NCBI GenBank assembly: GCA_015200345.1
Contig: CP054187.1
Coordinates: forward strand, 3,456,470-3,520,469
DNA: 64,000 bases
Reading direction: 5' to 3'
Source: Planctomycetia bacterium
Lineage (GTDB): Bacteria; Planctomycetota; Phycisphaerae; UBA1845; UTPLA1
Shown here: positions 59,280-63,916 of the stretch, one piece after another
How positions within the stretch are numbered: the first letter of the stretch is position 1
Layout of the letters: each line of letters begins with the position of its first letter
Position numbers and translations under genes: made by a program
Notes under the pieces: generated by a model
Database searches by the model: none
What the model was told of the DNA's origin: nothing
Seen by the model: only the letters and a program-made list of their open reading frames with translations

Positions 59280-59443
59280 TTGACACCGGACGGGGGGTAG
59301 AACCGTCGCTCGGGGTGATGGAGCCGATAGGCGAATGTCATACTGAAAGGAGCATGACATGAGACGAGCGAGGTGGACGATGCTGGCGGTGGCGGGGCTG
59401 GTGCTGATGGGTTCGGACGGCGCGGTGCGGAGCGATTGCCCGC
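59280..59443 (+). repeat. cassette 1, conserved 5' block (promoter-like region, leader, signal peptide)
   Basis: This block is nearly the same as 61573-61742. It begins with TTGACA (59280-59285), then a spacer of 12 bases containing six consecutive G (59292-59297), then TAGAAC (59298-59303). A shared leader with the ribosome site AAAGGAG (59346-59352) and the first 28 codons of the small gene follow. The similarity ends within the codons after SDCP. The spacer in this copy is too short for a normal sigma70 promoter. Confidence 0.85.
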
Positions 59444-59673
59444 AGAGTGGTGCCTGGAATTGTGTCCCGCTGTCGAATCCGATGTGCATCTGGGCTGTGG
59501 AAATGGGAACGACCTGCGAGCTTGGCAATTTGGCAAGTTGCGGCTGTGTCAGCGGGTCTTGTACATCCGACGAGCAGCATGTTCCACAGTATGCTGGGTA
59601 CGAATTACTCTTATACAGGATGAGACCTGCGGGGTGTTGTAAGGACATTAGTTGGGGATATTGTTTTCAGTAG
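59359..59673 (+). CDS. small exported cysteine-rich protein, cassette 1
   Basis: This 104-residue protein has a signal peptide (RRARWTMLAVAGLVLMGSDGAVRS) nearly identical to that encoded in cassette 2. The mature part has about ten cysteines and ends RPAGCCKDISWGYCFQ. The closing motif RPAGCC-x-DISWG-x-C is also found in the cassette 2 protein, although the middle parts differ. An ATG at 59354 gives only a two-codon frame (ATGACATGA) overlapping the region before the true start. No family is recognised; cysteine spacing suggests a disulphide-stabilised secreted peptide. It is the first gene of a two-gene cassette. Confidence 0.72.
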   Translation: MRRARWTMLAVAGLVLMGSDGAVRSDCPQSGAWNCVPLSNPMCIWAVEMGTTCELGNLASCGCVSGSCTSDEQHVPQYAGYELLLYRMRPAGCCKDISWGYCFQ

Positions 59674-59810
59674 GATATCAGACCGTGTTTTCGGCGATAT
59701 CGATGCGTGGCACTTGACGGAAGCACGAATTGCGGGCCAGGCAGCTCATGCAGTTTTCAGGATTTCGGAATCGTGAATATGGAAGCGTGGTTCACTGAAC
59801 TGGGTCCACA

Positions 59811-61526
59811 ATGTTGCTGGGAGGCTCAATATTCGACCCTATGAGCATGCTTGATCCTATTGGTTACTGGGTGCTTGCTGGAGTCATGATTTGTTGTGGT
59901 GAGGCTCCGCGCGATGAGAGTTCGCTTCCGGAGGCACTTCGCCGAGCGTTTGAATCGCGAAATGCGCCGCGTACAGGGTGTTTCCAGTATCTCGTTCAAG
60001 AGCACTTCCCCCCGCATGCGCCTCGAAGCACTCGATTTGTTCAGCGGTTCGCGGGAGATAATATCTACATTTGCAACCTGGGTGACGAGGAGGGGATTGT
60101 ACTGCGCCAGCCCGATGGAACGCCTCTGCTGGGCGTTCGCAATGCATGTTTGCCGACGGAGATGGTGGTCGATCGAAACCAGGGCAGAACATATGTCCAC
60201 ATGGGGTCTTATGCGCACGCCGGCGCATACGAGTGGAATGGGTTTGAGCCATTTGTTGACGTGCGAACAATCGGGCTTCATTGGGCGCCAGCTCAAATGA
60301 AGCTTGTGGAAGAGTTATTGAACGCATTCCGCAAGCCGGACGTGACATTCAGGAGTCGGAAGCTTGAGACGTGCTTAATTGAAGTCATCATGACGTCGAC
60401 TCGCCGAGGTTCAGGCAACACGTTTGAGATGCGGTGGACAATCAATCCCCAACAAGGGTATGGAGTCACTCGCATTGAATCATGTGAGATTGATCAGGCT
60501 GGGCAAAAGCAGTTCATTTGCGAGATGAATGCGACTCACGTCGAGGTCGATTCGCATTGGTGGCCACGGGTCGTGGAGACTTCGTGCAAGACGTCTGGTT
60601 ATCGACATCGAATTGAGATCATGGAAATGGAGTTCGACCGGCCGGACCATCCGAGCGTTATTAACATCGATCAGTTAGGGCTGCCGCCAGGTACGCCGAT
60701 TATTGCGCCCAAGTTCTTTCCGGGCCAAGCGGCTTATTACGTTGGCGATGACCGAATCGTCGACGAGGATGAATGGAATCGAATTCGCGATGCCTTCGAT
60801 AAGTCTCCATTCGAAAAATGGCTCGGCATTCAGAGCGCAAAAGGCACGGGTGCCTACCCTTCCTGGTGGGAGGACGCGTCTGGCCGATTCGGGCTGGAGG
60901 GCGTCGAGCACAAGCCGGATGCGTGGGAGGCGTATGTTCGGCGGTGGATTCTTAAGCGGACTGATTCGCGTGGGCAATCACTGGCGGAGCCGCTCACGGA
61001 GAAGCAGAAGACGGCGGCGTGGGCGGTGCTGGCGGATTGCAGGAAGCGGGCGCATCCGATCGTGGAGAAGCGCGCGGCGGAGCTGGCCGAGGCGCGGAAG
61101 CGGCTTCGCGAGAATCGCCAGGTGATCGAAGAGCTTCGGTCGCAGTCCAAGGCGAGTGTATCGAACAACGGGAAGCAGGGCGTGGGCGGGACAGCGGCCA
61201 ATCCTGCGGCCGGGGGGGCAAGCGAATCGGCCGGTGGCGGCCCGAAGCCGACTGCACGAGAAGATGAGCGGCTGGCGCAGGCGATGCAGGCGTCGGAGCG
61301 GTGGCTGGCGGCGGCGAAGGAGTTGGAGAAGCCCGACGGCCGGCTGGCGGAGATATTTGAGGAGTTGAAGCGCCGATTGGATGGATTGCTGACCAGCGTG
61401 CAGCGCAGCGATGCGAACGTGCTGCCGCCGCCGGCAGTCAAACCACAGTCGATGCGCGACGGCCGACCAGTGCCGCTTCCGCAGCGCGATCCGCGTCGGG
61501 CGCCGCCGGCCGCGCCGCGGCCGTGA
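59811..61526 (+). CDS. large exported cassette protein, copy 1 (variable N-terminus, constant C-terminus)
   Basis: The frame gives 571 residues from 59811; ATG 59841 or 59847 would start just before the hydrophobic signal-like segment (YWVLAGVMICCGEA). The N-terminal 345 residues are alpha/beta with landmarks shared by copy 2 at low identity: RFAGDNIYICNLGDEEGIVL, NACLP, GSYAH, DVRT, QQGYG, HWWP, EFDRPDHP and LGLPPGTP. From DASGRFGLEGVEHKPDAWEA on, the sequence is identical to copy 2: a helical domain, a coiled coil (RAAELAEARKRLRENRQVIE), and a Gly/Ala/Pro-rich end. The base composition of the 5' half is AT-richer than most of the window. No function is recognised; it is probably periplasmic or surface-bound. 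Confidence 0.75.
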   Translation: MLLGGSIFDPMSMLDPIGYWVLAGVMICCGEAPRDESSLPEALRRAFESRNAPRTGCFQYLVQEHFPPHAPRSTRFVQRFAGDNIYICNLGDEEGIVLRQPDGTPLLGVRNACLPTEMVVDRNQGRTYVHMGSYAHAGAYEWNGFEPFVDVRTIGLHWAPAQMKLVEELLNAFRKPDVTFRSRKLETCLIEVIMTSTRRGSGNTFEMRWTINPQQGYGVTRIESCEIDQAGQKQFICEMNATHVEVDSHWWPRVVETSCKTSGYRHRIEIMEMEFDRPDHPSVINIDQLGLPPGTPIIAPKFFPGQAAYYVGDDRIVDEDEWNRIRDAFDKSPFEKWLGIQSAKGTGAYPSWWEDASGRFGLEGVEHKPDAWEAYVRRWILKRTDSRGQSLAEPLTEKQKTAAWAVLADCRKRAHPIVEKRAAELAEARKRLRENRQVIEELRSQSKASVSNNGKQGVGGTAANPAAGGASESAGGGPKPTAREDERLAQAMQASERWLAAAKELEKPDGRLAEIFEELKRRLDGLLTSVQRSDANVLPPPAVKPQSMRDGRPVPLPQRDPRRAPPAAPRP

Positions 61527-61530
61527 CGCA
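60873..61530 (+). repeat. constant 3' block of cassette 1 (658 bp)
   Basis: By eye this aligns without gaps to 63259-63916, with about four base differences, all silent in the encoded protein. It starts at the codons for DASGRFG and ends just after the stop codon. Flanking sequence on both sides is unrelated or strongly diverged, so the edges are sharp. Confidence 0.93.
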
Positions 61531-61572
61531 GGAGACCGTAACAAACAATTAAGGAGGGCTTGAGCCGAAAAT

Positions 61573-61742
61573 TTGACACCAGGCCGGGGGGGGGGGTAGA
61601 ACCGTCGCTCGGGGTGATGGAGCCGATAGGCGATTGTCATTCTGAAAGGAGCATGGCATGAGACGAGCGAGGTGGACGATGCTGGCGGCGGCGGGGCTGG
61701 TGCTGATGGGTTCGGACGGCGCGGTGCGGAGCGACTGCCCGC
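61573..61742 (+). repeat. cassette 2, conserved 5' block with G11 tract
   Basis: This is the counterpart of 59280-59443. TTGACA (61573-61578) and TAGAAC (61597-61602) are here 18 bases apart, because the G-tract is eleven long (61586-61596) and a few other bases differ. This spacing would suit a sigma70 promoter, unlike copy 1. The leader, ribosome site and signal-peptide codons follow as in copy 1. Confidence 0.82.
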
Positions 61743-62201
61743 CGGCGGAACAGGTTGTAATCGTTGGTCAAGACCGTTCGGTGCAGGGCTTGCTGGATCG
61801 TTAATCAAGGCTGCACGCTGCCTCCGGGGGGTTGGTGGGATGAATGTCTATGGGATACTATTTATGGACAAGCTTGCCAACAAAACTCGACCCCTCCATG
61901 CGGGTGTGTAAAAATGGCTTGTACTGGATTCACGTGGACTGCTGCAAATGCCGGGCAATTCGTTACTTCTTGGGGGAATCGCCCTGCAGGGTGCTGCAAT
62001 GACATATCGTGGGGATGGTGTCATGTTGAGATGGAGCGTCTTTGCGGCACAATGCTTCCCTGTTTGACCCTCATCGGACACACGCCCTATTTCTGCACAC
62101 CCAACAATCCATGCCATTTGTCCGAAGACGACCCGCAACCGATTTACCGCGTAGGTACCTGGCTCTTGGACGGTCAGTCATGCTGTTTTGACTCGCAGTG
62201 A
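61658..62201 (+). pseudogene. small cysteine-rich gene of cassette 2, frameshifted
   Basis: ATG 61658 opens the same signal peptide as in cassette 1, but that frame stops at 61802-61804 after 48 codons. The cysteine-rich body lies in the next frame, open from 61761 to the stop at 62199-62201, and ends its core with RPAGCCNDISWGWCH, the same motif as cassette 1, then continues about 58 more residues with further cysteines. A one-base shift between about 61745 and 61775 would join signal and body. This could be a true broken gene, a slippage-controlled one or a sequencing error. The body frame itself has only a TTG start and no signal peptide. Confidence 0.7.
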
Positions 62202-62214
62202 GCAGGTGAGCAAG

Positions 62215-63912
62215 ATGGTTCCGGTATCGATACGGTTAACGTCCGCCGCGATAGTTCTACTTGCACATTCTCAATCGCGGGCGAATGACATACCGCGCGC
62301 GCTACAAAAGGCGTGTGAAATGCGAACAAAACCGCACACGGGGCTTCTTCATTATCGACTTGAGACGCGATACGTGAGCGGGAACGTCCAAATAGAACGG
62401 ATTCAAGCGAGGCTTGCGGGTGACAATATCGAGTTGACCGAACTCGGCGATGACGACGGGATCGTATTATATGACAAAAGACTAACACCCTTTGGAGTGC
62501 AAAACGCGTGTTTGCCGAAACGCACCATAATTGACCGAACAGGAGAGCATCCGCTTGCCTGGATACATTGGGGCAGCTATGAGCATGTTGCGACAGCCAA
62601 GCTCGACCTGGGAGTGCTCTTCGTCGATCCCAGAACTTTTGGAGTCTATTTTAAACCATTTCCGAACAAGTCGTGCAGTCAAATTCTTGCCGAATTTTTT
62701 GTGCCATCGGCCGAGGGTGAATACACCGAAACGCGAAGAGACGGTTTAGTTGTATTGAATCGAGAACTGGAAGATCCGACCGGCCAGTCGTCGTGCACGC
62801 TTCGTTCAGAGCAGGTCTTTGACCCCGATCGGGGTTACGGCATTCTCTCCATGTCAATCGAACAACGCTGCACGCAACAGGCACCGGTACCGATGATGCG
62901 TGCCACCGGTGAGTACGGGCAGATCGACGGTTATTGGTGGCCGGTTCATTTTGAAAGTGAGAATCTTCGCACCGGCTATCGGTTTGTGTATCAGTTGGAG
63001 CACGCCGAGTTTGATCGGCCGGAGCATCCAAAGTCGATTGGGCCCGACGACCTCGGCATGCCGCCGGGCGCGCCTGTTTACCACCCGGACTATGTTGACA
63101 AGCCCGGCGAGTCGCCCGCTCGCTACCTCGGCGGGGGCAAAGTGGTCTCAAAATCGGAGTGGGAACAGATCAAATCAGACTACGACGTTCACGCTGTTCA
63201 AGAATGGATTCGTGCGTGCTTGGCCAAAGGTAGTGGCCAATTTCCAACTTGGTGGGATGACGCGTCTGGCCGATTCGGGCTGGAAGGGGTCGAGCACAAG
63301 CCGGATGCGTGGGAGGCGTATGTTCGGCGGTGGATTCTTAAGCGGACTGATTCGCGTGGGCAATCACTGGCGGAGCCGCTCACGGAGAAGCAGAAGACGG
63401 CGGCGTGGGCGGTGCTGGCGGATTGCAGGAAGCGGGCGCATCCGATTGTGGAGAAGCGCGCGGCGGAGCTGGCCGAGGCGCGGAAGCGGCTTCGCGAGAA
63501 TCGCCAGGTGATCGAAGAGCTTCGGTCGCAGTCCAAGGCGAGTGTATCGAACAACGGGAAGCAGGGCGTGGGCGGGACAGCGGCCAATCCTGCGGCCGGG
63601 GGGGCAAGCGAATCGGCCGGTGGCGGCCCGAAGCCGACTGCACGAGAAGATGAGCGGCTGGCGCAGGCGATGCAGGCGTCGGAGCGGTGGCTGGCGGCGG
63701 CGAAGGAGTTGGAGAAGCCCGACGGCCGGCTGGCGGAGATATTTGAGGAGTTGAAGCGCCGATTGGATGGATTGCTGACCAGCGTGCAGCGCAGCGATGC
63801 GAACGTGCTGCCGCCGCCGGCAGTCAAACCACAGTCGATGCGCGACGGCCGACCAGTGCCGCTGCCGCAGCGCGATCCGCGTCGGGCGCCGCCGGCCGCG
63901 CCGCGGCCGTGA
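62215..63912 (+). CDS. large exported cassette protein, copy 2 (variable N-terminus, constant C-terminus)
   Basis: This 565-residue protein starts at ATG 62215, 13 bases after the small gene's stop; a signal peptide follows (VSIRLTSAAIVLLAHSQSRA). The N-terminal 345 residues share landmarks with copy 1 (RLAGDNIELTELGDDDGIVL, NACLP, GSYEH, DPRT, DRGYG, YWWP, EFDRPEHP, LGMPPGAP) but are otherwise diverged. The last 219 or so residues are identical to copy 1. The 5' half has a lower GC content than neighbouring housekeeping genes. This is the second unit of a tandem cassette; the window ends 88 bases later, so more units may follow. Confidence 0.77.
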   Translation: MVPVSIRLTSAAIVLLAHSQSRANDIPRALQKACEMRTKPHTGLLHYRLETRYVSGNVQIERIQARLAGDNIELTELGDDDGIVLYDKRLTPFGVQNACLPKRTIIDRTGEHPLAWIHWGSYEHVATAKLDLGVLFVDPRTFGVYFKPFPNKSCSQILAEFFVPSAEGEYTETRRDGLVVLNRELEDPTGQSSCTLRSEQVFDPDRGYGILSMSIEQRCTQQAPVPMMRATGEYGQIDGYWWPVHFESENLRTGYRFVYQLEHAEFDRPEHPKSIGPDDLGMPPGAPVYHPDYVDKPGESPARYLGGGKVVSKSEWEQIKSDYDVHAVQEWIRACLAKGSGQFPTWWDDASGRFGLEGVEHKPDAWEAYVRRWILKRTDSRGQSLAEPLTEKQKTAAWAVLADCRKRAHPIVEKRAAELAEARKRLRENRQVIEELRSQSKASVSNNGKQGVGGTAANPAAGGASESAGGGPKPTAREDERLAQAMQASERWLAAAKELEKPDGRLAEIFEELKRRLDGLLTSVQRSDANVLPPPAVKPQSMRDGRPVPLPQRDPRRAPPAAPRP

Positions 63913-63916
63913 CGCA
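63259..63916 (+). repeat. constant 3' block of cassette 2 (658 bp)
   Basis: This is the partner of 60873-61530, offset by 2386 bases. Sequence after 63916 differs from that after 61530. Confidence 0.93.

Follow-up and report, generated by a model that had tools for sequence, protein, structure and literature searches.

A multicopy two-gene operon family with slippage-prone 5' repeats, predicted to be phase variable, in an order of Planctomycetota

Analysis of a 64-kb stretch of planctomycete DNA, hereafter the window, and of other genomes of the same order revealed a multicopy family of two-gene operons whose expression, in our judgement, is likely to switch stochastically as slipped-strand events alter a simple sequence repeat (SSR) in the 5' region. 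Environmental Planctomycetota probably switch genes for secreted proteins randomly between on and off states, as is known for the surface proteins of some pathogens. In the two units of the window, A and B, and in many of the other homopolymer-bearing members, the repeat occupies the stretch from the -35 to the -10 element, where its length would set the promoter spacing, as in porA of Neisseria. Repeat length would change within a clone, the spacing would control transcription, and the products would serve, on the cell surface or beyond it, as a bet-hedging trait that perhaps counters phage, predators or competitors. With somewhat less assurance, we also favour a broader reading for the order, namely a multi-locus phase-variable repertoire of secreted Cys-rich proteins, with many kinds of repeat in one regulatory region and with repeat-bearing 5' blocks and 3' ends spread by recombination. 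If true, such a repertoire would be without precedent in the phylum.

The tandem units and their promoters

Two tandem two-gene units are present at positions 59280-63916 of the window (Table 1), as an earlier note on this DNA had proposed, and the common 5' block that it described was found in both, the copies being 96.7% identical over 152 bp. The 3' blocks are 99.25% identical across 667 bp, and the DNA between the 5' and 3' blocks is diverged. In plan, each unit forms a full operon that has a promoter and a start of its own. The possibility that the array continues past the window was rejected, as GAPDH and unrelated genes come downstream of unit B; since, in addition, no third near-identical copy was found in the whole genome (a single 3.88-Mb contig), the locus holds a pair and not a longer array.

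Table 1. Features of the two tandem units (positions in the window)
Feature	Position	Strand	Basis
-35 element TTGACA, unit A	59280..59285	+	sequence
Unit A	59292-61530	+	
Constant 5' block, copy A (leader and small-gene signal peptide)	59292..59443	+	
G6 tract in promoter spacer, unit A; spacer 12 nt	59292..59297	+	
-10-like element TAGAAC, unit A	59298..59303	+	sequence
Small gene A, 104-aa Cys-rich protein with signal peptide	59359..59673	+	ORF
Large gene A, exported; predicted LolA/LolB-fold N-terminal domain and helical C-terminal domain	59811..61526	+	
Constant 3' block, copy A (C-terminal 220 aa)	60864..61530	+	
-35 element TTGACA, unit B	61573..61578	+	sequence
G11 tract in promoter spacer, unit B; spacer 18 nt	61586..61596	+	
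Unit B	61591-63916	+	
Constant 5' block, copy B	61591..61742	+	
-10-like element TAGAAC, unit B	61597..61602	+	sequence
Small gene B, frame of the signal peptide (48 codons; stop at 61802)	61658..61804	+	
Small gene B, Cys-rich body, other frame	61764..62201	+	
Large gene B, domain plan as in large gene A	62215..63912	+	
Constant 3' block, copy B	63250..63916	+	

The 5' block starts at a G run that has 6 nt in unit A (G6) but 11 nt in unit B (G11), the latter being the sole homopolymer of at least 9 nt in the window. The promoters of both units, inferred from consensus, differ from each other by 5 Gs and 6 nt of spacing in blocks otherwise 97% identical. Their -10 element, TAGAAC, is weak, and a generic sigma-70 scan called neither of them, because the spacer of 12 nt falls outside its 16-18 range and TAGAAC fails its last-base rule. 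In porA of Neisseria meningitidis, a poly-G tract between -35 and -10 shifts the spacing around a 17-nt optimum according to its length (PMC7864442), and a passage of PMC5084427 cites van der Ende 1995 for the phase variation of this promoter. When the same spacing rule is applied to the two units, A, with a spacer of 12 nt, far under the optimum, is predicted to be OFF, and B, with 18 nt, close to the optimum, is predicted to be ON or nearly ON.

The encoded proteins and their family

A Cys-rich small gene had been claimed for each unit, which is the case in A; in B, the gene is frameshifted as assembled, with the frame of the Cys-rich body closed upstream by a TAA at 61758. No slippery heptamer for programmed frameshifting was apparent by eye in small gene B, and the break may correspond to a frameshift, a pseudogene or an assembly or sequencing error; perhaps only the large protein of unit B is therefore functional. 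Across the family, a Cys-rich ORF was found directly upstream and on the same strand in 51 of the 67 large genes sampled, versus 2/67 in antisense, so the two-gene plan is a conserved arrangement and probably an operon. A hydrophobic segment is nearly always present in these upstream ORFs, and the signal peptide and many cysteines of the small protein suggest a disulfide-bonded exported product.

The structure model of the large protein of unit A (mean pLDDT 61, rising to about 70-86 over much of the N-terminal domain) showed an N-terminal half-barrel of LolA/LolB type, matching 9tp6_A in Foldseek (E 3e-9) and 9tp6_B by VIA (Z 12.6 over residues 37-291), followed by a helical C-terminal part. 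The sequence profile of the large protein also matches 9tp6 (E 0.001), and on the model the N-terminal domain is assigned to the LolA/LolB superfamily fold. Among curated profiles, Pfam LolA_like reached only E 0.26 for the large protein of unit B, under the cut-off, and none of 25 members matched LolA; the family as a whole gave no coherent Pfam family match, and the proteins of units A and B gave nothing above the cut-off in Pfam, NCBIfam or PADLOC. The fold of the LolA/LolB carriers of periplasmic lipids and lipoproteins is common to residues about 37-291; unlike these carriers, the large protein has about 570 aa, an extra helical C-terminal domain and a Cys-rich partner, and was found in one order only. 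This C-terminal helical domain (profile positions about 340-460) also recurs in most of the order's genomes, either by itself or as part of other proteins.

Four more paralogous loci of the large protein, full or broken, were found in its own genome, and relatives were present in 13 of 61 genomes searched. A profile search of the order gave about 75 members of nearly full length, and single genomes had as many as 14 matches; none was found at E 1e-40 in 391 other planctomycete genomes, a coarse search in which only four candidates per genome were scored. In the contigs of named genomes, a first scan detected no locus and a second scan detected seven; the named relatives are MAGs of Planctomycetota (CP054190 H1_PLA3, JALHJL Phycisphaerales, CAADGL PLA1, and JAUWXH).

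As the family is exported, multicopy and variable, it could serve a surface-borne or secreted trait subject to fluctuating selection, for instance by phage, predators or competitors, a reading that we hold tentatively. A more specific function, compatible with the switch mechanism, would be competition or kin discrimination by secreted toxin/partner modules, in which case switching would vary which cells are armed. The small, Cys-rich, exported, diverse and multicopy genes with a co-encoded exported partner would fit such modules; however, no toxin, defence or immunity family was matched and the model of the small protein was unusable (pLDDT 39), and we regard this function as rather unlikely.

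Diverged centres between recombined ends

The contrast between the two parts of the large proteins was borne out by their comparison: residues 351-571 are 98-100% identical between A and B, whereas residues 1-350 are only 21-36% identical (32, 21, and 36% in three consecutive segments). In the same three segments, the third paralogue, an unlinked unit, showed 35, 22, and 35% identity to A and 35, 16, and 46% to B, and thus the N-terminal parts of A and B are no closer to each other than either is to the third paralogue. These identities mark the centres of A and B as old paralogues. Since simple duplication cannot give diverged centres together with near-identical C-termini, the ends have been homogenised by recombination or gene conversion.

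Signs of recombination were also found in other genomes. Contig 56 of genome G058 (locus L103) carries an array of three tandem units bearing TCCCT x8 repeats, whose 5' block, up to and including the repeat, is almost identical across units (96% over 276 bp), and two of the three are 99.7% identical overall (3.2 kb). In the sister species G001, the syntenic site between the dehydrogenase and GAPDH genes (contig 1:1498500-1503000, L222) contains only 99-bp and 43-bp remnants of the 3' part of the large gene, from which it follows that units are gained and lost.

The mosaic structure of A and B, the common 5' block of the G058 array and the 3'-block remnant in the sister species are all in line with the idea, raised in the earlier note, of an antigenic or recognition system that diversifies by recombination; homologous exchange at the 5' and 3' blocks would then replace one cassette centre by another. 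That the ends recombine is upheld by these data, but diversification as such appears unlikely to us: just two units are present here, both of them complete operons under separate promoters, neither silent donor cassettes nor a single expression site was seen, and one orthologous pair at another locus is under purifying selection, with a dN/dS of about 0.2 (about 0.19 for the small gene and 0.23 for the large one), which would speak against hypervariable centres. The whole points to recombination as a secondary process of concerted evolution, the main process being the switching of expression via slippery repeats.

Repeats across the family and comparison with known systems

Non-trinucleotide SSRs were detected in the 750-bp upstream zone of 32 of 68 family units, versus 1.2 expected from control DNA (459 kb, taken from twenty 20-kb stretches and the remainder of the window), and in zones of the same size inside the large gene in 2/68. 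This corresponds to an about 26-fold enrichment 5' of family units, a figure that is no strict probability, as the 68 units are a sample and some are of common ancestry. Three further units (L023, L030, and L035) carry an SSR outside the fixed 750-bp zone, and about half of the units have no detectable SSR. The repeats comprise poly-G, the commonest type, poly-C, poly-A and poly-T, (AC)14.5, TCCCT x4-16, octamers x3-9.5 and a nonamer x3, and the type changes between members within the same region; a common TCCCT block ranges from 4.4 to 16 copies depending on the locus. Because one repeat type is replaced by another in the same region, what is selected would be the instability itself and not a binding site. 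The genomes compared are one per species, and their MAG assemblies may err in homopolymers; the five-G difference between A and B and several of the 5- to 9-mer arrays are unlikely to be errors.

Homopolymers of at least 7 nt between TTGA and TAnnnT were present in 12/33 cases in sense orientation, 1/33 in antisense and 1/88 in the control. The spacers range from 12 to 20 nt across units, around the 17-nt optimum, and in some units the SSR is located elsewhere, in the 5' leader or just within the first reading frame. In the genome of the window, each of the six family loci has either a G run within a TTGACA...TA promoter or an octamer in 9.5 copies. The latter, TCTCACCG x9.5, belongs to the third paralogue (L007/L042, contig 1302055-1304087, minus strand), in which it appears to follow the likely ATG of the small gene, preceded by RBS-like sequence, and to lie inside the reading frame. 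A repeat so placed is the classical translational on/off arrangement.

The pattern TTGAC-N(2-14)-G7-TA gave about 60 matches in 114 genomes of the order, whereas the reversed pattern gave about 12; in the genome of the window the counts were 5 and 0, respectively. Of these five matches, three are at family loci and the other two upstream of two Cys-rich lipoprotein genes. This genome contains only 13 distinct G runs of at least 9 nt, four of which lie in a TTGA...polyG...TA context before exported-protein genes: one at this locus, one at a family locus (784 kb), one at a Cys-rich lipoprotein gene (2970 kb) and one at a further gene (1388 kb).

Outside the family, the genes at L192 (contig about 1297957, minus strand) and L193 (2970484, plus strand) are related-looking Cys-rich lipoprotein genes with TTGAC-polyG-TA promoters of 16- and 17-nt spacer, respectively. 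Promoter-like G runs also precede exported-protein genes at L194/L045 (G13, contig 280754-280766, 281 kb, 22-nt spacer) and L195/L057 (G10, contig 1388572-1388581), which are possibly further phase-variable loci. In other genomes of the order (L162, L178, and L182 among the loci), TTGAC-polyG-TA is also found before unrelated small Cys-rich exported proteins, and the recurrence of this motif suggests a wider switched gene set beyond the two-gene family.

The G runs could instead be a fixed regulatory element, either a regulator binding site or the spacer of a special sigma factor. The predominance of poly-G would agree with this, and so would the orthologues L008 and L026, which hold a spacer of 19 nt in both cases while the tract sequence differs. 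Against it, the region that holds the G run has C, A, T, AC or repeats of 5 to 9 nt instead in other members, and a binding site is unlikely to tolerate the difference in G number and spacing between the promoters of A and B; we consider a fixed element quite improbable. Weaker still is the reading of the units as ordinary paralogues in tandem, whose conserved C-terminal domain would have undergone gene conversion, with the repeats as mutational noise in relaxed intergenic DNA. The conservation of the C-terminus throughout the large-protein family and the broken reading frames of several members would lend themselves to this reading, but not the concentration of repeats at one place or the almost exclusively sense orientation of the spacer homopolymers.

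SSR phase variation is known mainly from host-associated bacteria. Long SSRs were correlated with dependence on a eukaryotic host in a 2014 survey (PMC4060949), and according to a 2025 review the known distribution of SSR phase variation may just reflect a database bias to pathogens and commensals (PMC11868660). A repeat-switched family of secreted proteins in an order of Planctomycetota would, if true, extend this phenomenon to a new phylum and open to direct test the selective forces behind random switching away from animal hosts; the finding also gives a handle on an uncharacterised, order-specific protein family. Our literature search returned no report of phase variation in Planctomycetes, the one mention of "phase-variable" in a planctomycete paper concerning microscopy, and neither the large/small protein family, nor its order-wide extent, nor the exchange of repeat types was found in it. 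The switch mechanism is thus already known, and the protein family, its extent over the order, the exchange of repeat types in one region and the presence in Planctomycetota appear to be new.

Among described systems, the antigenic variation of pilin and VlsE resembles A and B in its constant flanks, variable centre and homogenised ends. However, systems of the pilE/vlsE type have one expression site plus silent cassettes, whereas each unit here has its own promoter. A close parallel to A and B is found in porA (and opc) of Neisseria meningitidis, with a poly-G tract in the -35/-10 spacer; in A and B the tract lengths differ between the copies. While porA is a single porin gene, many SSR types are spread here over a multicopy operon family of Planctomycetota, whose switching is predicted from sequence.
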